This document shows, one piece after another, positions 13,195-64,000 of a DNA stretch of 64,000 nucleotides (positions are counted from its first letter, which is position 1; every line of letters begins with the position of its first letter). The notes under the pieces are model-generated. The model saw only the letters and a list, made by a program, of their open reading frames with translations, was not told the origin of the DNA and ran no database searches. The position numbers and the translations under genes were made by a program. The stretch covers positions 37,294,063-37,358,062 of the forward strand of contig OZ038385.1 in NCBI GenBank assembly GCA_964036045.1, written 5' to 3'. Origin of the DNA: Eutreptiella sp. 'Long Island Sound 2002' (lineage: Eukaryota > Euglenozoa > Euglenophyceae > Eutreptiales > Eutreptiaceae).

Positions 13195-13339
13195 GTGTGT
13201 TGTGCCGTCCACCACAGCACTCAGTTCTGCCCTTCACAGGAACCACACACTCACTTCCAAGTGGGGGACCAGTTTTAGTGTTTTCTCTCTTTTTACGCGT
13301 GCCGTCCCGGTGTTTGCTGCCAATTGCACATGCCCGCAG

Positions 13340-17300: not shown

Positions 17301-17319
17301 CACTCTGAACTGTTCATCA

Positions 17320-23205: not shown

Positions 23206-23220
23206 AACACCCAACGTCGG

Positions 23221-24635: not shown

Positions 24636-24712
24636 TAAGTTTTCTCTGCCAAGAGGGCCACTTTGGGCAAGGTTTTTTGACAAAGCACCCCACCAGACCA
24701 AAAAGCGTCCGG
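24636..24712. repeat. 412-bp repeat, truncated copy 3
   Basis: Only the first about 77 bp are present (AAGTTTTCTCTGCCAAGAGG to AAAAAGCGTCCGGG). It then passes into the 198-bp array at a shared CCGGG, suggesting a microhomology junction. Confidence 0.9.
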
Positions 24713-27700: not shown

Positions 27701-27848
27701 CCATTTTAGTCACCCGGCCGGCCACAGCCGGGGCAATTTTTCAAGCCGACACCCAAAATGGCAATAAATCGCGATTTCCCGGGGCTATGTGCATTTTCAG
27801 CAAATTTTGCGAAAGACAAAGTCGAAGAGCGCAAAATTCCGCATCCGT
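24713..27848. repeat. 198-bp tandem repeat array, about 16 copies
   Basis: Successive copies of ATGGTCAAAAGTGC start at 24833, 25031, 25229, 25427, 25625 and so on, 198 bp apart, except for rearranged copies at 25.68-25.88 kb. Each unit contains AGTTTTCAAGCCGAAAAACA, GGGGCCCCTAAACCGAG and a GGCCGGCC palindrome. As 198 = 3 x 66, one frame is open through successive units (e.g. PMVKSAACFGAPKPSYGHFS), and it is interrupted by stops at the GCATTTTAAGC and AAGCTGAAAA variants. I read it as satellite; a decayed 66-residue coding repeat is the alternative. Units differ by scattered substitutions. Confidence 0.95.
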
Positions 27849-28005
27849 ACTTCTTTTTGCCTGGAAACAAAAATTATTGCTACGGGCAACAGAGGCAAAC
27901 CCCATTAAACCCCATTGTATGTTCGGATTCCTCGAGTTTGTGAAGATACATTGTGGACCTGTCCACCTGTAGACCTGTGGACCTGTGGACCTGTGCACTG
28001 TGAAC
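27849..28005. repeat. Junction between arrays with a short 9-bp repeat
   Basis: About 100 bp of apparently unique sequence (27849-27951) separates the 198-bp array from the 21-bp satellite. It is followed by imperfect 9-bp GTGGACCT-type units (27952-27996) and ends GTGAAC directly before the first palindrome. Confidence 0.7.
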
Positions 28006-28738
28006 CCGGAACATGTTCCGGTGCTTCCGGAACATGTTCCGGTGCTTCCGGAACATGTTCCGGTCCTTCCGGAACGTGTTCGAGTGCTTCCGGAACATGT
28101 TCCGGTGCTTCCGGAACATGTTCCGGCGCTTCCGGAACATGTTCCGGTCCTTCCGGAACATGTTCGGGCGCTTCCAGAACCTGTTCCGGCGCTTCCGGAA
28201 CATGTTACGGTCCTTCCGGAACATGTTCCGGTCCTTCCGGAACATGTTCCGGTGCTTCTGGAACATGTTCCGGTGCTTCCGGTACATGTTCCGGCGCTTC
28301 CGGTACATGTTCCGGTCCTTCCGGAACATGTTCCGGTCCTTACGGAACATATTCCGGTGCTTCCGGAACATGTTCCGGCGCTTCCGGAACATGTTCCGGC
28401 GCTTCCGGAACATGTTCCGGCGCTTCCGAAACATGTTCCGGTGCTTCCGGAACATGTTCCGGTGCTTCTCGAACATGTTCCGGTTCTTTCGGAACATGTT
28501 CCGGTGCCTCCGGAACATGTTCCGGTGCCTCCGGAACATGTTCCGGAGCTTTCGGAACATGTTCCGGTCCTTCCGGAACATGTTCCGGTCCGTCCGGAAC
28601 ATGTTCCGGCGCTTCCGGAACATGTTCCGGTGCTTCCGGAACATATTCCGGCGCTTCCGGAACATGTTCCGGTGCTTCCGGAACATGATCCGGCGCTTCC
28701 GGAACATATTCCGGTGCTTCCTGAACATGTTCCGGTCC

Positions 28739-34700: not shown

Positions 34701-37700
34701 CCGGGGCTTCCGGAACATGTTCCGGCGCTACCGGAACATGTTCCGGTGCTTCCGGAACATATTCCGGCGCTTCCGGAACATGTTCCGGTGCTTCCGGAAC
34801 ATGATCCGGCGCTTCCGGAACATGTTCCGGTGCTTCCGGAACATGTTTCGGCGCTTCCGGAACATGTTCCGTTGCTTCGGGAACATATTCCGGCGCTTCC
34901 GGAACATGTTCCGGTGCTTCCGGAACATGATCCGGCGCTTCCGGAACATGTTCCGGTGCTTCCGGAACATGTTCCGGTCCTTCCCTTCCGGAACATGTTC
35001 CGGTCCTTCCGGAACATGTTCCGGCGCTTCCGGAACATGTTCCGGTCCCTCCGGAACATGTTCCGGCGCTTCCGGAACATGTTCCGGTGCTTCCGGAACA
35101 TGTTCCGGTGCTTCCGGAACATGTTCCGGTGCTTTCGGAACATGTTTCAGGCGCTTCCGGAACATGTTCAAGTCCTTCCGGAACACGTTCCGGCGCTTCC
35201 GGAACACGTTCCGGTCCTTCCGGAACGTTTTCCGGTGCTTCCGGAACACGTTCCGGCGCTTCCGGAACAGGTTCCGGCGCTTCCGGAATATGTTCCGGTC
35301 CTTCCGGAACATGTTCTGGTCCTTCCGGAACATGTTCCGGTCCTTCCAGAACATGTTCCGGTGCTTCCGGAACATGTTCCGGCGCTTCCGGAACATGTTC
35401 CGGTCCTTCCGGAACATGTTCCGGCGCCTCCGGAACATGTTCCGGCGCCTCCGGAACATGTTCCGGTCCTTCCGGAACATGTTCCGGTGCCTCCGGAACA
35501 TGTTCCGGAAGCACCGGAACATGTTCCGGCGCTTCCGGAACATGTTCCAACATGTTCCGGCGCTTCCGGAACATGTTCCGGCGCTTCCGGAACATGTTCC
35601 GGTCCTTCCGGAACATGTTCCGGTCCTTCCGGAACATGTTCCGGTGCTTCCGGAACATGTTCCGGTGCTTTCGGAACATGTTCCGGAGGCATCGGAACAT
35701 GTTCCGGAAGCATCGGAACATGTTCCGGAAGCATCGGAACATGTTCCGGTCCTTCTGGAACATGTTCCGGCGCTTCTGGAACATGTTCCGGTGCTTCCTG
35801 AACATGTTCCGGTCCTTCCGGAACATGTTCCGGTCCTTCCGGAACATGTTCCGGTCCTTCCGGAACATGTTCCGGCGATTCCGGAACATGTTCCGGTGCT
35901 TTCGGAACATGTTCCGGAAGCATCGTAACATGTTCCGGAAGCATCGGAACATGTTCCAGAAGCATCGGAACATGTTCCCGTCCTTCCGGCACATGTTTCG
36001 GTGCTTCCGGAACATGTTCCGGCGCTTCCGGAACATGTTCCGGCGCTTCCGGAACATGTTCCGGTGCTTCCGGAACATGTTCCGGTCCTTCCGGAACATG
36101 TTCCGGTCCTTCCGGAACATGTTCCGGTCCTTCCGGAACATGTACCGGTCCTTCCGGAACATGTTCCGGCGCTTCCGGAACATGTTCCGGTGCTTCCGGA
36201 ACATGTTCCGCCGATTCCGGAACATGTTCCGGTGCCTCCGAACATGGTCCCGTCCTTCCGGCACATGTTCCGGTGCTTCCGGCACATGTTCCGGCGCTTC
36301 AGGAACCTGTTCCGGCGCTTCCGGAACATGTTCCGGCGCTTCCGCAACATGTTCCGGTGCTTCCGGAACATGTTACGGTCCTTCCAGAACATGTTCCGGT
36401 CCTTCCGGAACATGTTCCGGTGCTTCCGGAACATGTTCCGGTCCTTCCGGAACATGTTCCGGTCCTTCCGGACCATGTTCCGGCGCTTCCAGAACATGTT
36501 CCGGTGCTTTAGGAACATGTTCCGGCGCTTCCGGAACATGTTCCGGTGCTTTAGGAACATATTCCGGCGCTTCCGGAACATGTTCCGGCGCTTCCGGAAC
36601 ATGTTCCGGTGCTTCCGGAACATGTTCCGGTCCTTCCGGAACATGTTCCGGCGCTTCCGGAACATGTTCCGGTGCTTCCGGAACATGTTCCGGCGCTTCC
36701 GGAACATGTTCCGGCGCTTCCGGAACATGTTCCGGTCCCTCCGGAACATGTTCCGGCGCTTCCGGAACATGTTTCCGGTGCTTCCGGAACATGTTCCGGT
36801 GCTTCCGGAACGTGTTCCGGTCCTTCCGGAACATGTTCCGGTCCTTCCCTTCCGGAACATGTTCCGGTCCTTCCGGAACATGTTCCGGCGCTTCCGGAAC
36901 ATGTTTCCGGTGCTTCCGGAACATATTCCGGCGCTTCTGGAACATGTTCCGGTGCTTCCGGAACATGTTCCGGTCCTTCCCTTCTGGAACATGTTCCGGT
37001 CCTTCCGGAACATGTTCCGGCGCTTCCGGAACATGTTCCGGTCCCTCCGGAACATGTTCCGGCGCTTTCGGAACATGTTCCGGCGCTTCCGGAACATGTT
37101 CCGGGCTTCCGGAACATGTTCCGGTGCTTCCGGAACATGTTCCGGTCCTTCCGGAACATGAAACGGTGCTTCCGGAACATGTTCCGGCGCTTCCGGAACA
37201 TGTTCCGGTGCTTCCGGAACATGTTCCGGTGCTTCCGGAACATGTTCCGGTGCTTCCGGAACATGTTCCGGTCCTTCCGGAACATGTTCCGGTGCTTCCG
37301 GAACATGTTCCGGTGCTTCCGGAACATGTTCCGGTGCTTCCGGAACATGTTCCGGCGCTTCCGGAACATGTTCCGGCACTTCCGGAACATGTTCCGGCGC
37401 TTCCGGAACATGTTCCGACGCTTCCGGAACATGTTCCGGCGCTTCCGGAACATGTTCCGGTGCTTCCGGAACATATTCCGGCGCTTCCGGAACATGTTCC
37501 GGCGCTTCCGGAACATGATCCGGCGCTTCGGGAACATGTTCCGGTGCTTCTGGAACATGTTCCGGTCCTTCCCTTCCGGAACATGTTCCGGTCCCTCTGG
37601 AACATGTTCCGGCGCTTCCGGAACATGTTCCGGCGCTTCCGGAACATGTTCCGGTGCTTCCGGAAGATGTTCCGGTCCTTCCGGAACATGTTCCGGTCCC

Positions 37701-42390: not shown

Positions 42391-45300
42391 CGGAACATGT
42401 TCCGGTCCCTCTGGAACATGTTCCGGCGCTTCCGGAACATGTTCCGGCGCTTCCGGAACATGTTCCGGCGCTTGCGGAACATGTTCCGGCGCTTCCGGAA
42501 CATGTTCCGGCGCTTGCGGAACATGTTCCGGTGCTTCCGGAACATGTTCCGGTCCTTCCGGAACATGTTCCGGTGCTTCCGGAACATATTCTGGCGCTTC
42601 CGGAACATGTTCCGGTCCTTCCGTAACATGTTCCGGCGCTTCCGGAACATGTTCCGGCGCTTCTGGAACATGTTCCGGCGCTTCCGGAACATGTTCCGGT
42701 CCCTCCGGAACATGTTCCGGCGCTTCCGGAAAATGTTCCGGCGCTTCCGGAACATGTTTTCGGTGCTTCCGGAACATGTTCCGGTGCTTCCGGAACGTGT
42801 TCCGGTCCTTCCGGAACGTGTTCCGGTCCTTCCGGAACATATTCCGGCGCTTCCGGAACATGTTCCGGCGCTTCCGGAACATGATCCTGCGCTTCCGGAA
42901 CATGTTCCGGTGCTTCCGGAACATGTTCCGGTCCTTCCGGAACATGTTCCGGCGCTTCCGGAACATGTTCCGGTCCCTCCGGAACATGTTCCGGCGCTTC
43001 CGGAACATGTTCCGGTGCTTCCGGAACATGTTCCGGCGCTTCCGGAACATGTTCCGGTGCTTCCGGAACATGTTCCGGTGCTTCCGGAACATGTTCCGGC
43101 GCTTCCGGAACATGTTCCGGTCCCTCCGGAACATGTTCCGGCGCTTCCGGAACATGTTCCGGCGCTTCGGGAACATGTTCCGGTGCTTCCGGAACATGTT
43201 CCGGCGCTTCCGGAACAAGTTCCGGTCCCTCCGGAACATGTTCCGGCGCTTCCGGAACATGTTTCCGGTGCTTCCGGAACATGTTCCGGTGCTTCCGGAA
43301 CGTGTTCCGGTCCTTCCGGAACATGTTCCGGTCCTTCCGGAACATGTTCCGGTCCCTCCGGAACATGTTCCGGCGCTTCCGGAACATGTTCCGGTCCTTC
43401 CGGAACATGTTCCGGTGCTTCCGGAACATGTTCCGGTGCTTCCGGAACATGTTCCGGTGCTTCCGGAACATGTTCCGGTGCTTCCAGAACATGTTCCGGT
43501 CCTTCCGGAACATGTTCCGGCGCTTCCGGAACATGTTCCGGCGCTTCCGGAACATGTTCCGGCGCTCCGGAACATGTTCCGGTGCTTCCGGAACATGTTC
43601 CGGTGCTTCCGGAACATGTTTTGGCGCTTCCGGAACATGTTCCGGCGCTTCCGGAACATGTTCCGGCGCTTCCCATGTTCCGGTCCTTCCGGAACATGTT
43701 CCGGTCCTTCCGGAACATGTTCCGGTGCTTCCGGAACATGTTCCGGCGCTTCCGGAACATGTTCCGGCGCTTCCGGAACATGTTCCGGGCCTTCTGGAAC
43801 ATGTTCCGGCGCTTCCGGAACATGTTCCGGTCCTTCCAGAACATGTTCCGGTCCTTCCGGAACATGTTCCGGTCCTTTCGGAACATGTTCCGGCGCTTCC
43901 GGAACATGTTCCGGTCCTTCCGGAACATGTTCCGGTCCTTCCGGAACATGTTCCGGTGCTTCCGGAACATGTTCCGGCGCTTCCGGAACATGTTCCGGTG
44001 CTTCCGGAATAGGTTCCGGCCCTTCCGAAACATGTTCCGGCGCTTCCGGAACATGTTCCGGCGCTTCCGGAACATGTTCCGGCGCTTCCGGAACATGCTC
44101 CGGCGCTTCCGGAACATGTTCCGGCGCTTCCGGAACATGTTCCGGTCCTTCCGGAACATGTTCTGGTCCTTCCGGAACATGTTCCGGCGCTTGCGGATCA
44201 TGTTCCGGCGCTTCCGGAACATGTTCCGGTGCCTCCGGAACATGTTCCGGCGATTCCGGAACATGTTCCGGTGCTTCCGGAACATGTTCCGGTGCTTCCC
44301 GAACATGATCCGGCGCTCTCGGAACATGTTCCGGCGCTTCCGGAACATGTTCCGGTGCTTCCGGAACATGTTCCGGTGCTTCCGGAACATGTTCCGGCGC
44401 TTCCGGAACATGTGCTTCCGGAACATGTTCCGGCGCTTCCGGAACATGTTTCGGTGCTTCCGGAACATGTTCCGGCGCTTCCGGAACATGTTTCGGTGCT
44501 TCCGGAACATGTTCCGGCGCTTCCGGAACATGTTGCGGCGCTTCCGGAACATGTTCCGGCGCTTCCGGAACATGTTCCGGTCCTTCCAGAACATGTTCCG
44601 GTCCTTCCGGAACATGTTCCGGTCCTTTCGGAACATGTTCCGGCGCTTCCGGAACATGTTCCGGTCCTTCCGGAACATGTTCCGGTCCTTCCGGAACATG
44701 TTCCGGTGCTTCCGGAACATGTTCCGGCGCTTCCGGAACATGTTCCAGTCCTTCCGGAACATGTTCCGGTGCTTCCCGAACATGTTCCGGTCCTTCCGGA
44801 ACATGTTCCGGCGCCTCCAGAACATGTTCCGGTGCCTCCGGAACATGTTCCGGCGATTCTGGAACATGTTCCAGTCCTTCCGGAACATGTTCCGGTGCTT
44901 CCCGAACACGTTCCGGTCCTTCCGGAACATGTTCTGGTGCTTCCGGAACATGTTCCGGCGCTTCCGGTACATGTTCCGGTCCTTCCGGAACATGTTCTGG
45001 TCCTTCCAGATCATGTTCCGGCGCTTCCGGAACATGTTCCGGTGCTTCCGGAACATGTTCCGGTGCTTCCGGAACATGTTCCGGCGCTTCCGGAACATGT
45101 TCCAGTCCTTCCGGAACATGTTCCGGTGCTTCCCGAACATGTTCCGGTCCTTCCGGAACATGTTCTGGTGCTTCCGGAACATGTTCCCGCGCTTCCGGTA
45201 CATGTTCCGGTCCTTCCGGAACATGTTCCGGTCCTCCCAGATCATGTTCCGGCGCTTCCGGAACATGTTCCGGTGCTTCCGGAACATGTTCCGGCGCTTC

Positions 45301-47439
45301 CGGAACATGTTCCGGTGCTTCCGGAACATGTTCCGGTGCTTCCGGAACATGTTCAGGTGCTTCCGGAACATGTTCCGGTGCTTCCGGAACATGTTCCGGC
45401 GCTTCCGGAACATGTTCCGGTGCTTCCGGAACACGTTCCGGTGCTTCCGGAACATGTTCCGGTGCTTCCGGAACATGTTCCGGCGCTTCCGGAACATGTT
45501 CCGGTGCTTCCGGAACATGTTCCGGCGCTTGCGGAACATGTTCGGGCGCTTCCGGAACATGTTCCGGTGCTTCCGGAGCATGTTTCGGTGCTTCCGGAAC
45601 ATGTTCCGGTCCTTCCGGAACATGTTCCGGCGCTTCCGGAACATGTTCCGGCGCTTCCGGAACATGTTCCGGCGCTTCCGGAACATGTTCCGGCGCTTCC
45701 GGAACATGTTCCGGTGCTTCCGGAACATGTTCCGGTCCTTCCGGAACATGTTCCGGTGCTTCCGGAACATGTTCCGGCGCTTCCGGAACATGTTCCGGTG
45801 CTTCCGGAACATGTTCCGGTGCTTCCGGAACATGTTCAGGTGCTTCCGGAATATGTTCCGGTGCTTCCGGAACATGTTCCGGCGCTTCCGGAACATGTTC
45901 CGGTGCTTCCGGAACACGTTCCGGTGCTTCCGGAACATGTTCCGGTGCTTCCGGAACATGTTCCGGTGCTTCCGGAACATGATCCGGCGCTGCCGGAACA
46001 TGTTCAGGTGCTTCCGGAACATGTTCCGGTGCTTCCGGAACATGTTCCGGCGCTTCCGGAACATGTTTCGGTGCTTCGGGAACATGTTCCGGCGCTTCCG
46101 GAACATGTTGCGGCGCTTCCGGAACATGGTCCGCCGCTTCCGGAACATGTTCCGGTCCTTCCGGAACATGTTCCGGTCCTTCCGGAACATGTTCCGGTCC
46201 TTTCGGAACATGTTCCGGCGCTTCCGGAATATGTTCCGGTCCTTCCGGAACATGTTCCGGTCTCTCCGGAACATGTTCCGGTGCTTCCGGAACATGTTCC
46301 GGCGCTTCCGGAACATGTTCCAGTCCTTCTGGAACATGTTCCGGTGCTTCCCGAACATGTTCCGGTCCTTCCGGAACATGTTCCGGCGCCTCCGGAACAT
46401 GTTCCGGTGCCTCCGGAACATGTTCCGGCGATTCCGGAACATGTTCCAGTCCTTCCGGAACATGTTCCGGTGCTTCCCGAACATGTTCCGGTCCTTCCGG
46501 AACATGTTCCGGCGCCTCCGGAACATGTTCCGGTGCCTCCGGAACATGTTCCGGCGATTCCGGAACATGTTCCGGTGCTTCCGGAACATGTTCCGGCGCT
46601 TCCGGTACATGTTCCGGTCCTTCCGGAACATGTTCCGGTCCTTCCAGATCATGTTCCGGCGCTTCCGGAACATGTTCCGGTGCTTCCGCAACATGTTCCG
46701 GTGCTTCCGGAACATGTTCCGGCGCTTCCGGAACATGTTCCGGTGCTTCCGGAACATGTTCCGGTCCTTCCGGAACATGTTCCGGCGCTTCCGGAACATG
46801 TTCCGGCGCTTCCGGAACATGTTCCGGCGCTTCCGGAACATGTTCCGGCGCTTCCGGAACATGTTTCGGTGCTTCCGGAACATGGTCCGGCGCTTCCGGA
46901 ACATGTTCCGGTGCTTCCGGAACATGTTCCGGCGCTTGCGGAACATGTTCCGGCGCTCTCGGAACATGTTCCGCCGCCTCCGGAACATGTTCCGGTGCTT
47001 CCGGAACATGTTCCGGCGGTTCGGGAACATGTTCCGGCGCTTCCGGAACATGTTCCGGCGCTTCTCGAACATGTTCCGCTGCTTCCGGAACATGTTCCGG
47101 TGCTTCCGGAACATGTTCAGGTTCTTCCGGAACATGTTCCGGTGCTTCCGGAACATGTTCCGGCGCCTCCGGAACATGTTCCGGTGCTTCCGGAACATGT
47201 TCCGGTGCTTCCGGAACATGTTCCGGTCCTTCCGGAACATGTTCCGGTCCTTTCGGAACATGTTCCGCCGCTTCCGGAACATGTTCCGCCGCTTCCGGAA
47301 CATGTTCCGGTGCTTCCGGAGTATGTTCCGGCGCTTCCGGAACATGTTCCGGCGCTTCCGGAACATGTTTCGGTGCTTCGGGAACATGTTCCGGCGCTTC
47401 CGGAACATGTTCCGGTCCTTCCGGAACATGTTCCGGCGC

Positions 47440-50400
47440 TTCCGGAACATGTTGCGGCGCTTCCGGAACATGGTCCGCCGCTTCCGGAACATGTTCCGGT
47501 CCTTCCGGAACATGTTCCGGTCCTTCCGGAACATGGTCCGGTGCTTCCGGAACATGTTCCGGTGCTTCCGGAACATGTTCCAGTCCTTCCGGAACATGTT
47601 CCGGTGCTTCCCGAACATGTTCCGGTGCTTCCGGAACATGTTCCGGCGCCTCCGGAACATGTTCCGGTCCCTCCGGAACATTTTCCGGCGCTTCTGGAAC
47701 ATGTTCCATTCCTTCCGGAACATGTTCCGGTGCTTCCCGAACATGTTCCGGTCCTTCCGGAACATGTTCCGGCGATTCCGGAACATGTTCCGGTGCTTCC
47801 GGAACATGTTCCGGCGCTTCCGGTACATGTTCCGGTCCTTCCGGAACATGTTCCGGTCCTTCCACATCATGTTCCGGCGCTTCCGGAACATGTTCCGGTG
47901 CTTCCGGAACATGTTCCGGTGCTTCCGGAACATGTTCCGGTGCTTCCGGAACATGTTCCGGTCCTTCCGGAACATGTTCCGGTCTTTCCGGAACATGTTC
48001 CGGCGCTTCCGGAACATGTTCCGGTCCTTCCGGAACATGTTCCGGCGATTCCGGAACATGTTCCGGCGCTTCCGGAACATGTTTCGGTGCTTCCGGAACA
48101 TGTTCCGGCGCTTCCGGAACATGTTCCAGTCCTTCCGGAACATGTTCCGGCGCTTCCGGAACATGTTCCGGTCCTTCCGGAACATGTTCCGGCGCTTCCG
48201 GAACATGATGCGGCGCTTCCGGAACATGTTCCGGCGCTTCCGGAACATGTTCCGGTCCTTCCGGAACATGTTCCGGTCCTTCCGGAACATGTTCCGGTCC
48301 TTTCGGAACATGTTCCGGCGCTTCCGGAATATGTTCCGGTCCTTTCGGAACATGTTCCGGTCCTTCCGGAACATGTTCCGGTGCTTCCGGAACATGTTCC
48401 GGCGCTTCCGGAACATGTTCCAGTCCTTCCGGAACATGTTCTGGTGCTTCCCGAACATGTTCCGGTCCTTCCGGAACATGTTCCGGTCCTTCCGGAACAT
48501 GTTCCGGCGATTCCGGAACATGTTCCGGTGCTTCCGGAACATGTTCCGGCGCTTCCGGTACATGTTCCGGTCCTTCCGGAACATGTTCCGGTGCTTCCGG
48601 AACATGTTCCGGCGCTTCCGGAACATGTTCCGGTGCCTCCGGAACATGTTCCGGTCCTTCCGGAACATGTTCCGGTCCTTCCGGAACATGTTCCGCTGCT
48701 TCCGGAACATGTTCCGGTCCTTCCGGAACATGTTCCGGCGCTTCCGGAACATGTTCCGGCGCTTCCGGAACATGTTCCGGTGCTTCCGGAACATGATCCG
48801 GCGCTTCCGGAACATGTTCCGGCGCTTGCGGAACATGTTCTGGCGCTTCCGGAACATGTTCCGGTGCTTCCGGAACATGTTCCGGTGCTTCCGGAACATG
48901 TTCCGGCGCTTCCGGAACATGTTCCGGCGCTTCCGGAACATGTTCCGGCGCTTCCGGAACATGTTCCGGTGCTTCCGGAACATGATCCGGCGCTTCTGGA
49001 ACATGTTCCGGTGCTTCCGGAACATGTTCCGGCGCTTCCGGAACATGTTCCAGTCCTTCCGGAACATGTTCCGGTGCTTCTCGAACATGTTCCGGTCCTT
49101 CCGGAACATGTTCCGGTCCTTCCGGAACATGTTCCGGCGATTCCGGAACATGTTCCGGTGCTTCCGGAACATGTTCCGGCGCTTCCGGAACATGTTCCGC
49201 CGCTTCCGGAACATGTTCCGCCGCTTCCGGAACATGTTCCGGTGCTTCCGGAACATGTTCCGGCGCTTCCGGAACATGTTCCGGCGCTTCCGGAACATGT
49301 TTCGGTGCTTCGGGAACATGTTCCGGCGCTTCCGGAACATGTTCCGGTCCTTCCGGAACATGTTCCGGCGCTTCCGGAACATGTTGCGGCGCTTCCGGAA
49401 CATGGTCCGCCGCTTCCGGAACATGTTCCGGTCCTTCCGGAACATGTTCCGGTCCTTCCGGAACATGGTCCGGTGCTTCCGGAACATGTTCCGGCGCTTC
49501 CGGAACATGTTCCAGTCCTTCCGGAACATGTTCCGGTGCTTCCCGAACATGTTCCGGTGCTTCCGGAACATGTTCCGGCGCCTCCGGAACATGTTCCGGT
49601 CCCTCCGGAACATTTTCCGGCGCTTCTGGAACATGTTCCAGTCCTTCCGGAACATGTTCCGGTGCTTCCCGAACATGTTCCGGTCCTTCCGGAACATGTT
49701 CCGGCGATTCCGGAACATGTTCCGGTGCTTCCGGAACATGTTCCGGCGCTTCCGGTACATGTTCCGGTCCTTCCGGAACATGTTCCGGTCCTTCCACATC
49801 ATGTTCCGGCGCTTCCGGAACATGTTCCGGTGCTTCCGGAACATGTTCCGGTGCTTCCGGAACATGTTCCGGTGCTTCCGGAACATGTTCCGGTCCTTCC
49901 GGAACATGTTCCGGTCCTTCCGGAACATGTTCCGGCGCTTCCGGAACATGTTCCGGTCCTTCCGGAACATGTTCCGGCGATTCCGGAACATGTTCCGGCG
50001 CTTCCGGAACATGTTTCGGTGCTTCCGGAACATGTTCCGGCGCTTCCGGAACATGTTCCGGTCCTTCCGGAACATGTTCCGGCGCTTCCGGAACATGTTC
50101 CGGTCCTTCCGGAACATGTTCCGGCGCTTCCGGAACATGTTGCGGCGCTTCCGGAACATGTTTCGGCGCTTCCGGAACATGTTCCGGTCCTTCCGGAACA
50201 TGTTCCGGTCCTTCCGGAACATGTTCCGGTCCTTTCGGAACATGTTCCGGCGCTTCCGGAATATGTTCCGGTCCTTTCGGAACATGTTCCGGTCCTTCCG
50301 GAACATGTTCCGGTGCTTCTGGAACATGTTCCGGCGCTTCCGGAACATGTTCCAGTCCTTCCGGAACATGTTCTGGTGCTTCCCGAACATGTTCCGGTCC

Positions 50401-51000
50401 TTCCGGAACATGTTCCGGTCCTTCCGGAACATGTTCCGGCGATTCCGGAACATGTTCCGGTGCTTCCGGAACATGTTCCGGCGCTTCCGGTACATGTTCC
50501 GGTCCTTCCGGAACATGTTCCGGTGCTTCCGGAACATGTTCCGGCGCTTCCGGAACATGTTCCGGTGCCTCCGGAACATGTTCCGGTCCTTCCGGAACAT
50601 GTTCCGGTCCTTCCGGAACATGTTCCGCTGCTTCCGGAACATGTTCCGGTCCTTCCGGAACATGTTCCGGCGCTTCCGGAACATGTTCCGGCGCTTCCGG
50701 AACATGTTCCGGTGCTTCCGGAACATGTTCCGGTGCTTCCGGAACATGTTCCGGTCCTTCCGGAACATGTTCCGGCGCTTCTGGAACATGATCCGGCGCT
50801 TCCGGAACATGTTCCGGCGCTTGCGGAACATGTTCTGGCGCTTCCGGAACATGTTCCGGTGCTTCCGGAACATGTTCCGGTGCTTCCGGAACATGTTCCG
50901 GCGCTTCCGGAACATGTTCCGGCGCTTTCGGAACATGTTCCGGCGCTTCCGGAACATGTTCCGGTGCTTCCGGAACATGTTCCGGCGCTTCCGGAACATG
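47440..51000. repeat. 1,932-bp higher-order repeat (92 units), two copies
   Basis: Rare variants recur 1,932 bp apart: ATGGTCCGCCG (47,473 and 49,405), CATTTTCCGG (47,681 and 49,613), CCACATCATG (47,864 and 49,796) and GGAATATG (48,330 and 50,262). 1,932 = 92 x 21. From about 48.8 kb the offset becomes 1,995 (95 units), so copy 2 gained three whole units. An earlier ATGGTCCGCCG at 46,129 lies 1,344 bp (64 units) before the first. Confidence 0.85.
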
Positions 51001-54000
51001 TTCCAGTCCTTCCGGAACATGTTCCGGTGCTTCTCGAACATGTTCCGGTCCTTCCGGAACATGTTCCGGTCCTTCCGGAACATGTTCCGGCGATTCCGGA
51101 ACATGTTCCGGTGCTTCCGGAACATGTTCCGGCGCTTCCGGTACATGTTCCGGTCCTTCCGGAACATGTTCCGGTGCTTCCGGAACATGTTCCGGCGCTT
51201 CCGGAACATGTTCCGGTGCTTCCGGAACATGTTCCGGTGCTTCCGGAACATGTTCCGGCGCTTCCGGAACATGTTCCAGTCCTTCCGGAACATGTTCCGG
51301 TGCTTCTCGAACATGTTCCGGTCCTTCCGGAACATGTTCCGGCGATTCCGGAACATGTTCCGGTGCTTCCGGAACATGTTCCGGCGCTTCCGGTACATGT
51401 TCCGGTCCTTCCGGAACATGTTCCGGTGCTTCCGGAACATGTTCCGGCGCTTCCGGAACATGTTCCGGTGCTTCCGGAACATGTTCCGGTGCTTCCGGAA
51501 CATGTTCCGGTCCTTCCGGAACATGTTCCGCTGCTTCCGGAACATGTTCCGGTCCTTCCGGAACATGTTCCGGCGCTTCCGGAACATGTTCCGGCGCTTC
51601 CGGAACATGTTCCGGTCCTTCCGGAACATGATCCGGCGCTTCCGGAACATGTTCCGGTGCTTCCGGAACATGTTCCGGCGCTTGCGGAACATGTTCCGGC
51701 GCTTGCGGAACATGTTCCGGTGCTTCCGGAACATGTTCCGGTGCTTCCGGAACATGTTCCGGTCCTTCCGGAACATGTTCCGGCGATTCCGGAACATGTT
51801 CCGGCGCTTCCGGAACATGATCCGGCGCTCTCGGAACATGTTCCGGCGCTCTCGGAACATGTTCCGGCGCTTCCGGAACATGTTCCGGTGCTTCCGGAAC
51901 ATGTTCCGGCGCTTCCGGAACATGTTCCGGTCCTTCCGGAACATGTTCCGGTCCTTCCGGAACATGTTCCGGTCCTTCCGGAACATGTTCCGGTCCTTTC
52001 GGAACATGTTCCGGCGCTTCCGGAATATGTTCCGGTCCTTCCGGAACATGTTCCGGTCCTTCCGGAACATGTTCCGGCGCTTCCGGAACATGTTCCGGCG
52101 CTTCCGGAACATGTTCCAGTCCTTCCGGAACATGTTCCGGTGCTTCCCGAACATGTTCCGGTCCTTCCGGAACATGTTCCGGCGCTTCCGGAACATGTTC
52201 CGGCGATTCCGGAACATGTTGCGGCGCTTCCGGAACATGTTCCGGCGCTTCCGGAACATGTTCCGGTCCTTCCGGAACATGTTCCGGTCCTTCCGGAACA
52301 TGTTCCGGTCCTTTCGGAACATGTTCCGGCGCTTCCGGAATATGTTCCGGTCCTTCCGGAACATGTTCCGGTCCTTCCGGAACATGTTCCGGTCCTTCCG
52401 GAACATGTTCCGGCGCTTCCGGAACATGTTGCGGCGCTTCCGGAACATGTTCCGGCGCTTCCGGAACATGTTCCGGTCCTTCCGGAACATGTTCCGGTCC
52501 TTCCGGAACATGTTCCGGTCCTTTCAGAACATGTTCCGGCGCTTCCGGAATATGTTCCGGTCCTTCCGGAACATGTTCCGGTCCTTCCGGAACATGTTCC
52601 GGTGCTTCCGGAACATGTTCCGGCGCTTCCGGAACATGTTCCAGTCCTTCCGGAACATTTTCCGGTGCTTCCCGAACATGTTCTGGTCCTTCCGGAACAT
52701 GTTCCGGTCCTTCCGGAACATGTTCCGGCGATTCCGGAACATGTTCCGGTGCTTCCGGAACATGTTCCGGCGCTTCCAGTACATGTTCCGGTCCTTCCGG
52801 AACATGTTCCGGTGCTTCCGGAACATGTTCCGGCGCTTCCGGAACATGTTCCGGTGCCTCCGGAACATGTTCCGGTCCTTCCGGAACATGTTCCGGTCCT
52901 TCCGGAACATGTTCCGCTGCTTCCGGAACATGTTCCGGTCCTTCCGGAACATGTTCCGGCGCTTCCGGAACATGTTCCGGCGCTTCCGGAACATGTTCCG
53001 GTGCTTCCGGAACATGATCCGGCGCTTCCGGAACATGTTCCGGTGCTTCCGGAACATGTTCCGGCGCTTGCGGAACATGTTCCGGCGCTTCCGGAACATG
53101 TTCCGGTGCTTCCGGAACATGTTCCGGCGCTTCCGGAACATGTTCCGGCGCTTCCGGAACATGTTCCGGCGCTTCCGGAACATGTTCCGGCGCTTCCGGA
53201 ACATGTTCCGGTGCTTCCGGAACATGATCCGGCGCTTCTGGAACATGTTCCGGTGCTTCCGGAACATGTTCCGGCGCTTCCGGAACATGTTCCAGTCCTT
53301 CCGGAACATGTTCCGGTGCTTCCCGAACATGTTCCGGTCCTTCCGGAACATGTTCCGGTCCTTCCGGAACATGTTCCGGCGATTCCGGAACATGTTCCGG
53401 TGCTTCCGGAACATGTTCCGGCGCTTCCGGTACATGTTCCGGTCCTTCCGGAACATGTTCCGGTGCTTCCGGAACATGTTCCGGCGCTTCCGGAACATGT
53501 TCCGGTGCTTCCGGAACATGTTCCGGTCCTTCCGGAACATGTTCCGGTCCTTCCGGAACATGTTCCGCTGCTTCCGGAACATGTTCCGGTCCTTCCGGAA
53601 CATGTTCCGGCGCTTCCGGAACATGTTCCGGCGCTTCCGGAACATGTTCCGGTGCTTCCGGAACATGATCCGGCGCTTCCGGAACATGTTCCGGTGCTTC
53701 CGGAACATGTTCCGGCGCTTGCGGAACATGTTCCGGCGCTTCCGGAACATGTTCCGGTGCTTCCGGAACATGTTCCGGCGCTTCCGGAACATGTTCCGGC
53801 GCTTCCGGAACAGGTTCCGGCGCCTCCGGAACATGTTCCGGCGCTTCCGGAACATGTTCCGGTGCTTCCGGAACATGATCCGGCGCTTCTGGAACATGTT
53901 CCGGTGCTTCCGGAACATGTTCCGGCGCTTGCGGAACATGTTCCGGCGCTTCCGGAACATGTTCCGGTGCTTCCGGAACATGTTCCGGTGCTTCCGGAAC

Positions 54001-55410
54001 ATGTTCCGGCGCTTCCGGAACATGTTCCGGTGCTTCCGGAACATGTTCCGGCGCTTCCGGAACATGTTCCGGCGCTTCCGGAACATGTTCCGGGGCTTCC
54101 GGAACATGATCCGGCGCTTCCGGAACATGTTCCGGTGCTTCCGGAACATGTTCCGGCGCTTGCGGAACATGTTCCGGCGCTTGCGGAACATGTTCCGGCG
54201 CTTCCGGAACATGTTCCGGTGCTTCCGGAACATGTTCCGGTCCTTCCGGAACATGTTCCGGCGATTCCGGAACATGTTCCGGCGCTTCCGGAACATGTTC
54301 CGGCGCTTCCGGAACATGTTCCGGCGCTTCCGGAACATGTTCCGGTGCTTCCGGAACATGCTCCGGTGCTTCCGGAACATGCTCAGGTGCTTCCGGAACA
54401 TGTTCTGGTGCTTCCGGAACATGTTCCGGTGCTTGCGGAACATGTTCCGGTGCTTCCGGAACATGATCCGGCGCTGCCGGAACATGTTCAGGTGCTTCCG
54501 GAACATGATCCGGCGCTGCCGGAACATGTTCCGATGCTTCCGGAACATGTTCCGGCGCTTCCGGAACATGTTCCGGTGCTTCCGGAACATGTTTCGGTGC
54601 TTCCGGAACATGTTCCGGCGCTTCCGGAACATGTTTCGGTGCTTCCGGAACATGTTCCGGCGCTTCCGGAACATGTTCCGGTCCTTCCGGAACATGTTCC
54701 GGTCCTTCCGGAACATGCTCCGGTCCTTTCGGAACATGTTCCGGCGCTTCCGGAATATGTTCCGGTCCTTCCGGAACATGTTCCGGTCCTTCCGGAACAT
54801 GTTCCGGTGCTTCCGGAACATGTTCCGGCGCTTCCGGAACATGTTCCGGTCCTTCCGGAACATGTTCCGGTGCTTCCCGAACATTTTCCGACCTTCCGGA
54901 ACATGTTCCGGTCCTTCCGGAACATGTTCCGGCGATTCCGGAACATGTTCCGGTGCTTCCGGAACATGTTCCGGCGCTTCCGGTACATGTTCCGGTGCTT
55001 CCGGAACATGTTCCGGTGCTTCCGGAACATGTTCCGGCGCTTCTGGAACATGTTCCGGTGCTTCCGGAAAATGTTCCGGTCCTTCCGGAACATGTTCCGG
55101 TGCTTCCGGAACATGATCCGGCGCTTCCGGAACAAGTTCCGGTGCTTCCGGAACATGTTCCGGCGCTTGCGGAACATGTTCCGGCGCTTCCGGAACATGT
55201 TCCGGTGCTTCCGGAACATGTTCCGGTCCTTCCGGAACATCTTCCGGCGATTCCGGAACATGTTCCGGCGCTTCCGGAACATGTTCCGGTCCTTCCGGAA
55301 CATGTTCCGGTCCTTCCGGAACATGTTCCGGCGCTTCCGGAACATGTTCCGGCGCTTCCGGAACATGTTCCGGTGCTTCCGGAACATGATCCGGCGCTTC
55401 CGGAACATGT

Positions 55411-55509
55411 TCCGGAAGCACCTGAACATGTTTCGGAAGCACCTGAACATGTTCCGGAAGCACCGGAACATGTTCCGGAAGCACCGGAACATGTTCCGGA
55501 AGCTTCCGG
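55411..55509. repeat. Inverted block within the satellite
   Basis: Four consecutive units have the reverse-complement spacer (AAGCA) instead of TGCTT. The block closes at CCGGAAGCTTCCGG (55,496-55,509), itself a palindrome made from two opposed half-spacers, which marks an inversion breakpoint. The peptide readings change heptad across this point. Confidence 0.85.
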
Positions 55510-56699
55510 AACATGTTCCGGCGCTTCCGGAACATGTTTCGGCGCTTTCGGAACATGTTCCGGAAGTGCCGGAACATGTTCCGGTCCTTCCGGAACATGT
55601 TCCGGTCCTTACGGAACATGTTTCGGTCCTTCCGGAACATGTTCCGGTCCTTCCGGAACATGATCCGGCGCTTCCGGAACATGTTCCGGCGCTTGCGGAA
55701 CATGTTCCGGCGCTTCCGGAACATGTTCCGGTGCTTCCGGAACATGTTCCGGTGCTTCCGGAACATGTTCCGGTCCTTCCGGAACATGTTCCGGTTCTTC
55801 CGGAACATGTTCCGGCGCTTCCGGAACACGTTCCGGCGCTTCCGGAACATGTTCCGGTCCTTTCGGAACATGTTCTGGTCCTTCCGGAACATGTTCCGGT
55901 CCTTCCGGAACATGTTCCGGCGCTTCCGGAACATGTTCCGGCGCTTCCGGAACATGTTCCGGTCCTTCCGGAACATGTTCCGGTGCTTCCGGAACACGTT
56001 CCGGTCCTTCCGGAACATGTTCCGGTGCTTCCGGAAGATGTTCCGGTCCTTCCGGAACATGTTCCGGCGCTTCCGGAACATGTTCCGGTGCCTCCGGAAC
56101 GTGTTCCGGCGATTCCGGAACATGTTCCGGCGCTTCCGGAACATGTTCCGGTCCTTCCGGAACATGTTCCGGTCCTTCCGGAACATGTTCCGGTGCTTCC
56201 GGAACATGTTCCGGTGCTTCCGGAACATGTTCCGGCGCTTCCGGTACATGTTCCGGTGCTTCCGGAACATGTTCCGGTGCTTCCGGAACATGTTCCGGTG
56301 CTTCCGGAACATGTTCCGTTCCTTCCGGAACATGTTCCGATGCCTCCCGAACATGATCCGGCGCTTCCAGAACATGTTCCGGCGCTTCCCGAACATGTTC
56401 CGGTCCTTCCGGAACATGTTCCGGCGCTTCCCGAACGTGTTCCGGTGCTTCCAGAACATGTTCCGGCGCTTCCGGGACATGTTCCGGCGCTTCCGGAACA
56501 TGATCTGGCGCTTCCGGAACATGTTGCGGTCCTTCCGGAACATGTTCCGGTGCTTCCGGAACATGTTGCGGTCCTTCCGGAACATGTTCCGGTGCTTCCG
56601 GAACATGTTCCGGCGCTTCCAGAACATGTTCCGGTCCTTGCGGAACATGTTCCGGCGCTTCCGGAACATGTTCCGGTGCTTCCGGAACATGTTCTGGCG

Positions 56700-59600
56700 C
56701 TTCCGCTTCCGGAACATGTTCCGGTGCTTCCGGAACATGTTCTGGCGCTTCCGGAACATGTTCCGGTCCTTCCGGAACATGTTCCGGTCCTTGCGGAACA
56801 TGTTCCGGCGCTTCCCGAACATGTTCCGGTGCTTCCGGAACATGTTGCGGTCCTTCCGGAACATGTTCCGGTGCTTCCGGAACATGTTGCGGTCCTTCCG
56901 GAACATGTTCCGGTGCTTCCGGAACATGTTCCGGCGCTTCCGGAACATGTTCCGCTGCTTCCGGAACATGTTCCGGTGCTTCCGGAACATGTTCCGGTGC
57001 TTCGGGAACATGTTCTGGCGCTTCCGGAACATGTTCCGCTCCTTCCGGAACATCTTCCGGTCCTTGCGGAACATGTTCCGGCGCTTCCCGAACATGTTCC
57101 GGCGCTTCCGGAACACGTTCCGGTGCCTCCGGAACGTGTTACGGCGATTCCGGAACATGTTCCGGTGCTTCCGGAACATGTTCCGGCGCTTCCGGAACAT
57201 GATCAGGCGCTTCCGGAACATGTTGCGGTGCTTCCGGAACATGTTCCGGTGCTTCCGGAACATGTTCCGGCGCTTCCGGAACATGTTCCGGCGCTTCCGG
57301 AACATGTTCCGGCGCTTCCGGAACATGTTCCGGTCCTTCCGGAACATGTTCCGGTGCTTCCGGAACATGTTCCGGCGCTTCCGGAACATGTTCCGGCGCT
57401 TCCGGAACATGTTCTGGCGCTTCCGGAACATGTTCCGGTCCTTCCGGAACATGTTCCGGTCCTTCCGGAACATGTTCCGGCGCTTCCCGAACATGTTCCG
57501 GAAGCGCCGGAACATGTTCCGGAAGCGCCGGAACATGTTCCGGTCCTTCCGGAACATGTTCATGCGCTTCCGGAACATGTTCCGGTCATTCCGGAACATG
57601 TTCCGGTCCTTCCGGAACATGTTCCGGCGCTTCCCGAACATGTTCCGGTGCTTCCGGAACATGTTCCGGCGCTTCCGGAACATTTTCCGGTGCTTCCGGA
57701 ACATGTTCCGGCGCTTCCGGAACATGTTCCGGCGCTTCCGGAACATGTTCCGGTCCTTCCGGAACATGCTCCGGCGCTTCCCGAACATGTTCCGGCGCTT
57801 GCGGAACATGTTCCGGTGCTTCCGGAACATGTTCCGGTGCTTCCGGAACATGTTCCGGTCCTTCCGGAACATGTTCCGGCGCTTCCGGAACATGTTCCGG
57901 TGCTTCCGGAACATGTTCTGGTCCTTCCGGAACATGTTCCAGTGCTTCCGGAACATGATCCGGCGCTTCCGGAACATGTTCCGGCGCTTCCGGAACATGT
58001 TCCGGCGCTTCCGGAACATGTTCCGGCGCTTCCGGAACATGTTCCGGTCCTTCCGGAACATGTTCCGGCGCTTCCCGAACGTGTTCCGGTGCTTCGGGAA
58101 CATGTTCCGGCGCTTCCGGGACATGTTCCGGCGCTTCCGGAACATGATCCGGCGCTTCCAGAACATGTTGCGGTCCTTCCGGAACATGTTCCGGTGCTTC
58201 CGGAACATGTTCCGGTGCTTCGGGAACATGTTCCGGCGCTTCCGGAACATGTTCCGGTCCTTCCGGAACATGTTCCGGTGCTTCCGGAACATGTTCCGGT
58301 GCTTCCGGAACATGTTCTGGCGCTTCCGGAACATGTTCTGCTCCTTCCTGAACCTCTTCCGGTCCTTGCGGAACATGTTCCGGCGCTTCCCGAACATGTT
58401 CCGGCGCTTCCGGAACATGTTCCGGTGCCTCCGGAACGTGTTACGGTGATTCCGGAACATGTTCCGGCGCTTCCGGAACATGTTCCGGTGCTTCCGGAAC
58501 ATGTTCCGGTGCTTCCAGAACATGTTCCGGTGCTTCCGGAACATGTTCCGGCGCTTCCGGAACATGTTCAGGTGCTTCCGGAACATGTTCCGGCGCTTCC
58601 GGAACATGTTCCAGTGCTTCCGGAACATGTTCCGGTGCTTCCGGAACATGTTCCGGCGCTTCCGGAACATGTTCCGGCGCTTCCGGAACATGATCCGGCG
58701 CTTCCGGAACATGTTCCGGTCCTTCCGCAACATGTTCCGGCGCTTCCGGAACATGTTCCGGCGCTTCCGGAACATGTTCCGGCGCTTCCGGAACATGTTC
58801 CGGTCCTTCCGGAACATGTTCCGGTCCTTCCGGAACATGTTCCGGCGCTTCCCGAACATGTTCCGGAAGCGCCGGAATATGTTCCGGTCCTTCCGGAACA
58901 TGTTCATGCGCTTCCGGAACATGTTCCGGTCCTTCCGGAACATGTTCCGGCGCTTCCGGAACATGTTCCGGCGCTTCCGGAACATGTTCCGGTGCTTCCG
59001 GAACATGTTCCGGTCCTTCCGGAACATGTTCCGGCGCTTCCGGAACATGTTCCGGTCCTTCCGGAACATGTTCCGGTGCTTCCGGAACATGTTCCGGCGC
59101 TTCCGGAACATGTTCCGGCGCTTCCGGAACATGATCCGGCGCTTCCGGAACATGTTGCGGTCCTTCCGGAACATGTTCCGGTGCTTCCGGCGCTTCCGGA
59201 ACATGATCCGGCGCTTCCGGAACATGTTGCGGTCCTTCCGGAACATGTTCCGGTGCTTCCGGAACATGTTCCGGCGCTTCCGGAACATGTTCCGGTGCTT
59301 CCGGAACATGTTGCGGTCCTTCCGGAACATGTTCCGGTGCTTCCGGAACATGTTCCGGCGCTTCCGGAACATGTTCCGGTGCTTCCGGAACATGTTCCGG
59401 TGCTTCCGGAACATGTTCCGGTGCTTCGGGAACATGTTCTGGCGCTTCCGGAACATGTTCCGCTCCTTCCGGAACATCTTCCGGTCCTTGCGGAACATGT
59501 TCCGGCGCTTCCCGAACATGTTCCGGCGCTTCCGGAACACGTTCCGGTGCCTCCGGAACGTGTTACGGCGATTCCGGAACATGTTCCGGCGCTTCCGGAA

Positions 59601-61060
59601 CATGTTCTGGTGCTTCCGGAACATGTTCCGGTGCTTCCGGAACATGTTCCGGTGCTTCCGGAACATGTTCCGGGGCTTCCGGAACATGTTCAGGTGCTTC
59701 CGGAACATGTTCCGGTGCTTCCGGAACATGTTCCGGTGCTTCCGGAACATGTTCCGGCGCTTCCGGAACATGTTCCGGTGCTTCCGGAACATGTTCCGGC
59801 GCTTCCGGAACATGATCAGGCGCTTCCGGAACATGTTGCGGTCCTTCCGGAACATGTTCCGGTGCTTCCGGAACATGTTCCGGCGCTTCCGGAACATGTT
59901 CCGGCGCTTCCGGAACATGATCCGGCGCTTCCGGAACATGTTCCGGTCCTTCCGGAACATGTTCCGGTGCTTCCGGAACATGTTCCGGCGCTTCCGGAAC
60001 ATGTTCCGGCGCTTCCGGAACATGTTCTGGCGCTTCCGGAACATGTTCCGGTCCTTCCGGAACATGTTCCGGTCCTTCCGGAACATGTTCCGGCGCTTCC
60101 CGAACATGTTCCGGAAGCGCCGGAACATGTTCCGGAAGCGCCGGAACATGTTCCGGTCCTTCCGGAACATGTTCATGCGCTTCCGGAACATGTTCCGGTC
60201 CTTCCGGAACATGTTCCGGTGCTTCCGGAACATGTTCCGGCGCTTCCCGAACATGTTCCGGTGCTTCCGGAACATGTTCCGGCGCTTCCGGAACATTTTC
60301 CGGTGCTTCCGGAACATGTTCCGGCGCTTCCGGAACATGTTCTGGCGCTTCCGGAACATGTTCTGGTCCTTCCGGAACATGTTCCGGTCCTTCCGGAACA
60401 TGCTCCGGCGCTTCCCGAACATGTTCCGGCGCTTGCGGAACATGTTCCGGTGCTTCCGGAACATGTTCCGGTCCTTCCGGAACATGTTCCGGCGCTTCCG
60501 GAACATGTTCCGGTGCTTCCGGAACATGTTCTGGTCCTTCCGGAACATGTTCCGGTGTCTCCGGAACATGATCCGGCGCTTCCGGAACATGTTCCGGCGC
60601 TTCCGGAACATGTTCCGGCGCTTCCGGAACATGTTCCGGCGCTTCCGGAACATGTTCCGGTCCTTCCGGAACATGTTCCGGCGCTTCCCGAACGTGTTCC
60701 GGTGCTTCGGGAACATGTTCCGGCGCTTCCGGGACATGTTCCGGCGCTTCCGGAACATGATCCGGCGCTTCCGGAACATGTTGCGGTCCTTCCGGAACAT
60801 GTTCCGGTGCTTCCGGAACATGTTCCGGTGCTTCGGGAACATGTTCCGGCGCTTCCGGAACATGTTCCGGTCCTTCCGGAACATGTTCCGGTGCTTCCGG
60901 AACATGTTCCGGTGCTTCCGGAACATGTTCTGGCGCTTCCGGAACATGTTCTGCTCCTTCCTGAACCTCTTCCGGTCCTTGCGGAACATGTTTCGGCGCT
61001 TCCCGAACATGTTCCGGCGCTTCCGGAACATGTTCCGGTGCCTCCGGAACGTGTTACGGT
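56700..61060. repeat. About 2,604-bp higher-order repeat (124 units)
   Basis: The inverted pair GGAAGCGCCGG (57,501 and 60,114) and the variant CTTCCTGAACCTC (58,350 and 60,963) both recur 2,613 bp apart. That is 124 x 21 plus the 9-bp insertion at about 59,187, which lies inside both intervals. Another marker (GCTCCTTCCGGAACATC, 57,039 and 59,463) is 115 units plus 9 bp apart, showing overlapping amplification. Confidence 0.75.
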
Positions 61061-64000
61061 GATTCCGGAACATGTTCTGGCGCTTCCGGAACATGTTCCG
61101 GTGCTTCCGGAACATGTTCCGGTGCTTCCAGAACATGTTCCGGTGCTTCCGGAACATGTTCCGGCGCTTCCGGAACATGTTCAGGTGCTTCCGGAACATG
61201 TTCCGGCGCTTCCGGAACATGTTCCAGCGCTTCCGGAACATGTTCCGGTGCTTCCGGAACATGTTCCGGCGCTTCCGGAACATGTTGCGGTCCTTCCGGA
61301 ACATGTTCCGGTGCTTCCGGAACATGTTCCGGCGCTTCCGGAACATGTTCCGGCGCTTCCGGAACATGATCCGGCGCTTCCGGAACATGTTCCGGTCCTT
61401 CCGCAACATGTTCCGGTGCTTCCGGAACATGTTCCGGCGCTTCCGGAACATGTTCCGGCGCTTCCGGAACATGTTCCGGCGCTTCCGGAACATGTTCCGG
61501 TCCTTCCGGAACATGTTCCGGCGCTTCCGGAACATGTTCCGGTCCTTCCGCAACATGTTCCGGTGCTTCCGGAACATGTTCCGGCGCTTCCGGAACATGT
61601 TCCGGCGCTTCCGGAACATGTTCCGGCGCTTCCGGAACATGTTCCGGTCCTTCCGGAACATGTTCCGGTCCTTCCGGAACGTGTTCCGGCGCTTCCCGAA
61701 CATGTTCCGGAAGCGCCGGAATATGTTCCGGTCCTTCCGGAACATGTTCATGCGCTTCCGGAACATGTTCTGGTCCTTCCGGAACATGTTCCGGTCCTTC
61801 CGGAACATGTTCCGGTCCTTCCGGAACATGTTCCGGCGATTCCGGAACATGTTCCGGCGCTTCCGGAACATGTTCCGGTGCTTCCGGAACATGATCCGGC
61901 GCTTCCGCAACATGTTCCGGTGCTTCCGGAACATGTTCCGGCGCTTCCGGAACATGGTCCGGTCCTTCCGAAACGTGTTCCGGCGCTTCCGGAACATCTT
62001 CCGGTCCTTCCCGAACATGTTCCGGTCCTTCCGGAACATGATCCGGTCCTTCCGGAACATGTTCCGGTCCTTTCGGAACATGTTCCGGTGCTTCCGGAAC
62101 ATGTTCCGGTGCTTCCGGAACATGATCCGGTCCTTCCGGAACATGTTCCGGTCCTTCCGGAACATGTTCCGGCGCTTCCGGAACATGTTCCGGTGCTTCC
62201 GGAACATTTTCCGGTCCTTCCGGAACATGATCCGGTCCTTCCGGAACATGTTCCGGTCCTTCCGGAACATGTTCCGGCGCTTCCGGAACATGTTCCGGTG
62301 CTTCCGGAACATTTTCCGGTCCTTCCGGAACATGCACCGGCGCTTCCTGAACATGTTCCTGCGCTTGCGAAACATGTTCCGGTGCTTCCGGAACATGTTC
62401 CGGTGCTTCCGGAACATGTTCCGGTGCTTCCGGAACATGTTCCGGCGCTTCCGGAACAAGTTCCGGTCCTTCCGGAACATGTTCCGGTCCTTCCGGAACA
62501 TGTTCCGGTCCTTCCGGGACACGTTCCGGCGCTTCCGGAACATGTTCCGGAGTCTCCGGAACATGTTCCGGCGATTCCGGAACATGTTCCGGCGCTGCCG
62601 GAACATGTTCCCGTGCTTCCGGAACATGATCCGGCGCTTCCGCAACATGTTCCGGTGCTTCTGGAACATGTTCCGGCGCTTCCGGAACATGTTCCGGCGC
62701 TTCCGGAACATGTTCCGGCGCTTCCGGAACAAGTTCCGGTCCTTCCGGAACATGTTCCGGCGCTTCCGGAACATGTTCCGGTGCTTCCGGAACATGTTCC
62801 GGTGCTTCCGGAACATGTTCCGGCGATTCCGGAACATGTTCCGGCGCTTCCGGAACATGTTCCGGTGCTTCCGGAACATGATCCGGCGCTTCCGCAACAT
62901 GTTCCGCTGCTTCCGGAACATGTTCCGGCGCTTCCGGAACATGTTCCAGTCCTTCCGAAACGTGTTCCGGCGCTTCCGGAACACGCTCCGGTCCCTCCGG
63001 AACGTGTTCCGGCGCTTCCGGAACATCTTCCGGTCCTTCCGGAACATGTTCCGGTCCTTCCGGAACATGTTCCGGTCCTTTCGGAACATGTTCCGGCGCT
63101 TCCGGAACATGTTCCGGTGCCTCCGCAACATGTTCCGGCGATTCCGGAACATGTTCCGGCGCTTCCGGGACATGTTCCGGCGCTTCCGGAACATGTTCCG
63201 GTGCTTCCGGAACATGATCCGGCGCTTCTGGAACATGTTCCGGAGCTTCCGGAACATGTTCAGGCGCTTCCGGAACATGTTCCGGTCCTTCCGGAACATG
63301 TTCCGGCGCTTCCGGAACATGTTCCGGTCCTTCTGGAACATGTTCCGGTGCTTCCGGAAAATGTTCCGGTGCTTCCGGAACACGTTCCGGCGCTTCCGGA
63401 ACACGTTCCGGTCCATCCGGAACATGTTCCGGTGCTTCTGGAACATGTTCCGGTCCTTCCGGAACATGTTCCGGCGCTTCCGGAACATGTTCCGGTACTT
63501 CCGGAACATGTTCCGGTCCTTCCGGAACATGTTCCGGTCCTTCCGGAACATGTTGCGATGGTTCCCGAACATGTTCCGGCGCTTCCGGAACATGTTCTGG
63601 TGCTTCCGGAACATGTTCCGGCGCTTCCGGAACATGTTCAGGTGCTTCCGGAACATGTTCCGGTGCTTCCGGAACATGTTCCGGCGCTTCCGGAACATGT
63701 TCCGGTGCTTCCGGAACATGGTCCGGCGCTTTCCGGAACATGTTCCGGTCCTTGCGGAACATGATCAGGCGCTTCCGGAACATGTTGCGGTGCTTCCGGA
63801 ACATGTTCCGGCGCTTCCGGAACATGTTCCGGTGCTTCCGGAACATGATCCAGCGCTTCCGGAACATGTTCCGGTCCTTCCGGAACATGTTCCGGTGCTT
63901 CCGGAACATGTTCCGGCGCTTCCGGAACATGTTCCGGCGCTTCCGGAACATGTTCGGGAAGCGCCGGAACATGTTCCGGAAGGACCGGAACATGTTCCGG

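Follow-up and report, generated by a model that had tools for sequence, protein, structure and literature searches.

The window, a stretch of 64,000 nucleotides of DNA from Eutreptiella sp., carries a recognised gene in its left part and ends on the right inside a long satellite array (Table 1). The gene, which encodes a U-box domain protein, is the only one recognised by Pfam above the cut-off in bases ~1–24000; a six-frame Pfam scan of the same bases at E 0.05 gave nothing beyond an incomplete U-box that breaks off at 12002. It is possibly preceded by a SAM-like exon (read by eye, no domain hit), and its 5′ splice sites, also read by eye, are unusual (GTCTCT and GTCGTT). Its introns, read in the same way, make a eukaryotic source most likely. 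A KIAA0319_N match at 17103–17621 (E=0.0052), in one of ten chosen open reading frames (ORFs), lay below the cut-off and was set aside. Positions 9752–10048 hold a cluster of imperfect inverted repeats with arms of 30–55 nt that are 77–84% complementary. Rfam gave no match at gathering score, and a tRNA-Ser called by ARAGORN at 28072–28166 was taken as false, as it lies inside the repeat. The telomere motifs TTAGGG and TTTAGGG do not occur in two consecutive copies on either strand; nor did we find a relic of the dinoflagellate spliced leader at up to three mismatches.

From ~23.0 kb onwards the sequence is a succession of a 13-bp minisatellite, a ~1-kb repeat, a 198-bp satellite, an 8-bp repeat and the array. 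The ~1-kb repeat bears inverted arms of 59 nt (23483–23541 and 24482–24540, 88% complementary), and its third, partial copy runs directly into the 198-bp satellite. The unit of the latter, which adjoins the array, is close to the nucleosome repeat length.

Table 1. Features of the window
Feature	Position	Strand	Remarks
U-box domain protein gene	11380..13270	+	Pfam U-box E=3.4e-12 in 11631-12275; three-exon model by eye
13-bp minisatellite AATGTTGACACCC	23009..23202	+	tandem-repeat detection
~1-kb repeat, one full copy and partial copies	23220..24713	+	84-94% in matched parts
198-bp satellite	24709..27847	+	14 further copies: 11 at 85-91% to the reference copy, three at 60-76%
8-bp repeat (TGTGGACC)	27952..28006	+	directly precedes the array
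21-bp palindromic satellite array	28006..64000	+	unit CCGGAACATGTTCCGG plus 5-bp spacer; window end reached
Run of three reverse-complement spacers (example)	35671..35733	-	among 16 runs
Duplicated segment, 1,569 bp	47254..48822	+	99.3% match to a segment 1,932 bp downstream
Four-unit run of reverse spacers, the longest	55400..55483	-	spacer orientation
Duplicated segment, 1,526 bp	57148..58673	+	98.6% match to a segment 2,613 bp downstream

Tandem Repeats Finder places the start of the array at 28006, with a period of 21 bp and the consensus CCGGAACATGTTCCGGTGCTT; a 42-bp row of the same program extends to 64000, the end of the window, which thus lies inside an array of at least 36,000 bases. 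Allowing up to four substitutions, we counted 1,707 palindromes in the array, 1,074 of them perfect over all 16 bp, and the interval between neighbours is exactly 21 bp in 1,666 of 1,706 cases. The palindrome makes up roughly three quarters of each unit, and no perfect copy of it occurs in bases 1–28005. Short units joined head to tail over a long tract are the mark of a satellite, and a first-pass annotation, which had described a satellite of about 1,700 palindromic units at 21-bp intervals, is borne out in its counts and its satellite character; the surroundings from ~23.0 kb are rich in repeats. The same annotation had pointed out that 21 bp corresponds to two helical turns; the arithmetic is true, and a function is not thereby demonstrated.

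Odd spacings number 40, of which 35 lie left of 44.5 kb, among them all 14 copies of a 26-bp interval. The stretch 44460–54870 (10.4 kb) contains no odd spacing at all, against the 35 of 40 in 28–44.5 kb. By the density of odd spacings the array is split into two zones with different histories. Divergence, reversed spacers included, ranges from 0.42 to 0.87 changes per unit across 3-kb bins, with no clear gradient.

Within the spacer, positions 17 and 18 carry three interspersed haplotypes, which are the predominant ones (CGCTT 593, TGCTT 481 and TCCTT 399 of 1,706 intervals). Adjacent units are identical with a frequency of 0.121 at lag 1 compared with 0.103 by chance; neighbours are thus hardly more alike than random units, and the unit order has been reshuffled. 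A higher-order repeat with a fixed period was rejected, because unit identity shows no peak at any lag between 1 and 399 units (the top value is 0.131 at lag 381, against 0.103 by chance). Segments have been duplicated within the array: the 25 best-scoring pairs that were listed measure 0.5–3.9 kb and are 93–99% identical, the best two at 98.6–99.3%, a pattern of concerted evolution by segmental homogenisation.

A small class of units carries the spacer in reverse orientation with the 21-bp register intact, which is the new observation made here. Scoring a spacer as reversed when it is nearer to a reverse complement than to any forward haplotype, we found 29 such units, grouped into 16 runs that comprise between one and four units each and in which both register and palindrome are kept; 28 of these spacers are exact reverse complements. 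Seen from the other side, 30 spacers in the array are three or more changes away from all forward haplotypes, and 28 of them are exact reverse complements of frequent spacers, which make up 7 of 819 possible 5-mers; the other two read AAGTG and AGTCT. Several reversed runs have flanking patterns in common and seem to be copied from a single event, so that independent flips number fewer than 16, perhaps about eight as judged by eye.

The geometry of the unit offers a way in which a spacer could turn around. Computed for single-stranded DNA, the predicted fold of palindrome, spacer and palindrome is a 16-bp hairpin whose loop measures 5 nt, with an energy of about −20 kcal/mol (three consensus 37-mers gave z between −8.5 and −8.8). 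For the initial 147 nt of the array the predicted energies are −65 and −67 kcal/mol, one for each strand (z about −15), whereas a 148-nt stretch of the 198-bp satellite, taken for comparison, has z values of −0.3 and 0.2. The reversed spacers fit what is expected if spacers flip as hairpin loops, and we infer that hairpins are their cause.

What is observed is a unit with a palindrome, copies of whole segments, a shuffled succession of units and spacers that read in reverse. From this we propose that the array is probably a non-coding satellite, that is, a long minisatellite, in a tandem-repeat-rich and probably heterochromatic domain, shaped by segment duplication and shuffling together with hairpin-driven inversion of spacers. 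Segments of ~0.5 to 4 kb would undergo unequal exchange or conversion, and the array would in this way grow and keep its uniformity. Because every 5-bp spacer sits between two self-complementary 16-mers, array DNA that becomes single-stranded would fold into 16-bp hairpins with the spacer as the loop, and resolving or copying such hairpins could flip the spacer while leaving palindrome and register undisturbed. The palindrome itself would then be kept by homogenisation and not by a binding protein. A heterochromatic state of the array is plausible, and a role in chromatin or at a centromere is possible.

Base composition bears on the recent history of the array. The observed/expected ratio of CpG is 1.3 in the array and 1.18 in the 198-bp satellite, compared with 0.68 in bases 1–23000, where TG/CA is in excess. 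Strong CpG decay was rejected for the array, since the frequency of C/G transitions at CpG is no more than 1.5 times (by copies) or 1.3 times (by events) that at other sites. The array is therefore either without strong methylation decay or was homogenised too recently to show it; given the high CpG ratio and the little CpG-specific decay, it may be unmethylated or recently homogenised.

The first-pass annotation had read the array as a series of binding sites for a dimeric protein, and we regard it as unlikely that a centromere, heterochromatin or recombination factor sits on each palindrome and that selection keeps the sites. The exact palindrome in 1,074 of the 1,707 units and the spacing in phase at 21 bp would suit such sites, as would the 1,429 matches to RRRCWWGYYY in the array, against five in bases 1–28005. 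RRRCWWGYYY is the half-site pattern of the p53 family, and an array of such half-sites would require a p53-family protein in the host; a homogenised array would show all such matches whatever their use. Better conservation of the palindrome than of the spacer, as had been claimed, is seen in raw copies, mainly through the haplotypes at positions 17 and 18, whereas by deduplicated events the two vary alike: 207 fall in the 16 palindrome positions and 60 in the five spacer positions (p=0.67), where positions 17 and 18 were scored against the nearest of the three haplotypes, which by construction lowers their event counts. The consensus base is present in 94.8–99.6% of copies at palindrome positions and in 93.8–97.3% at spacer positions 19–21. 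Leaving out reversed units, variation by copies amounts to 3.41% in the palindrome arms, 3.05% at spacer positions 19–21 and 2.09% in the core at positions 5–12. The arms are thus no better kept than spacer positions 19–21, and only the core, AACATGTT, is mildly less variable, with ratios of 0.61 to the arms (95% interval 0.52–0.73) and 0.68 to spacer positions 19–21 (0.56–0.83), both from a 1-kb block bootstrap. For the C/G positions of the core alone the ratio to the arms is 0.73 (0.55–0.96), and by deduplicated events core and arms differ by 88 to 119 (p=0.037). An earlier count of singletons had favoured the palindrome over the spacer (p=0.014) and the core in particular (59 of 252 mutations, p ~1e-6); since reversed spacers were still among its data and raise the number of spacer changes, we do not rely on it.

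If a symmetric dimer were bound, constraint should be mirrored across the palindrome, yet the eight pairs of mirrored positions share none (r=−0.07 by copies and 0.03 by events), and compensatory double changes occur in just four cases among the 1,707 units. Together with the equality by events, these results leave the proposed dimer sites with little support. The conservation pattern argues against a dimer site under strong selection, and the AACATGTT core leaves a weak form open. Its lower variability compared with the arms is not predicted by homogenisation alone.

Rather improbable in our estimate is a structural centromere or pericentromere satellite, in which dyad cruciforms would help to specify centromeric chromatin without a sequence-specific dimer. 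The extreme self-complementarity of the predicted folds and the adjacent 198-bp satellite are consistent with it, and dyad symmetry has been put forward in the literature as a feature of centromeres (PMC9070824; PMC13081366; PMC8122249). Against it, dyad symmetries in Drosophila melanogaster are, in the account that we draw on, enriched only on the Y centromere (PMC9070824). A bolder extension of the proposed spacer inversion, to which we give still less credence, is that of a self-flipping satellite, whose ~1,700 spacers would act as two-state switches recording hairpin or cruciform events and which may anchor centromeric or heterochromatic chromatin structurally. Dyad-rich satellites have been proposed as centromere marks via cruciform DNA, and units that are palindromic over three quarters of their length would be an extreme test object. 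Hairpin events in satellite DNA could be counted by the reversed spacers that they would leave behind, and the rate of hairpin formation would thereby become measurable from sequence between individuals.

Since 21 bp equal seven codons, the array could also be thought to encode a giant protein built of 7-residue repeats. At 44013–63761 one frame stays open over 6,583 codons, and the 10.4 kb without odd spacing are stop-free in three frames. Observed types of change were set against possible ones (no formal test): three frames lean towards synonymous types, namely KHRNMFR (32 of 38 synonymous against 107 of 148 non-synonymous), RNMFRCF (33 of 40 against 106 of 148) and APEHVPE (36 of 45 against 97 of 137). 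In APEHVPE, however, all seven of the seven possible stop types occur, and the other three frames lean away from synonymous types; one of them is PEHVPVL, in which the longest ORF is read (32 of 51 against 107 of 135). Long ORFs are present in all six frames, the TGCTT unit being stop-free in every one of them, and in 37 of the 40 odd spacings the departure from the unit length is not a multiple of three. With these frame-shifting spacings, long ORFs in six frames and no single favoured frame, the coding reading was rejected as highly improbable; judged by the first two of these features, the array looks non-coding. Long tandem arrays are error-prone in assembly, but a chimeric or over-expanded array is just as remote an explanation, because the 1,666 units comprise 243 distinct types and the longest exact repeat inside the array is 407 bp; the transition from the flanking repeats is continuous, and the sequence contains no N.

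We return to the reading of the array as a non-coding satellite shaped by duplication and spacer inversion, and compare it with known sequences. A text search of 5.39 million papers, and not of a eukaryotic repeat library, did not find the palindrome sequence, and four shorter strings of the array matched five papers, whose subjects are unrelated as judged by title. Two adjacent perfect-core units had no copies in viral or prokaryotic contigs, where a eukaryotic satellite is not expected, and the contig collections searched may leave out records of the window's own genome; positions 25000–28600 gave no match in phages. These literature searches agree with the earlier statement that no satellite with this unit has been described, whereas 21-bp minisatellites as a kind are known. 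BvMSat05 of sugar beet is one, likewise tandem and with a 21-bp unit and head-to-head junctions (PMC2820488); the likeness is drawn from its description. The monomers of BvMSat05 are 38–100% identical. Its authors suggested that palindromic motifs promote growth of the minisatellite by slippage (PMC2820488). In BvMSat05 a conserved 50-bp motif next to the arrays carries the palindromes, whereas here the palindrome is the unit, and inversion in BvMSat05 concerns whole arrays, whereas here single spacers flip (PMC2820488).

The mouse satellite TRPC-21A shares with the array a basic unit of 21 bp, again by description only, and is more GC-rich than the mouse MiSat and MaSat (PMC8122249). The description of TRPC-21A on which we draw does not mention a palindromic unit, in contrast to the unit found here (PMC8122249). 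Dyad-symmetric centromeric satellites, among them the macro-dyads of Tribolium, resemble the array in being self-complementary and capable of forming hairpins or cruciforms (PMC13081366; PMC9070824), but in Tribolium the symmetry extends over tens of kilobases of inverted arrays, whereas here it is contained in each 21-bp unit (PMC13081366). A parallel to the reversed spacers comes from plastomes, where spacer flips at hairpin stems are documented, in one case with a 5-bp loop; as in the array, a short loop between inverted stems flips and the stems stay (PMC6824564). The plastid inversions concern single sites in organelle DNA (PMC6824564), whereas the array, which is not known to be organellar, offers ~1,700 sites at which a flip could occur. 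The array is thus a genuine satellite of a known kind, and its unusually complete palindrome and flipping spacers set this variant apart.
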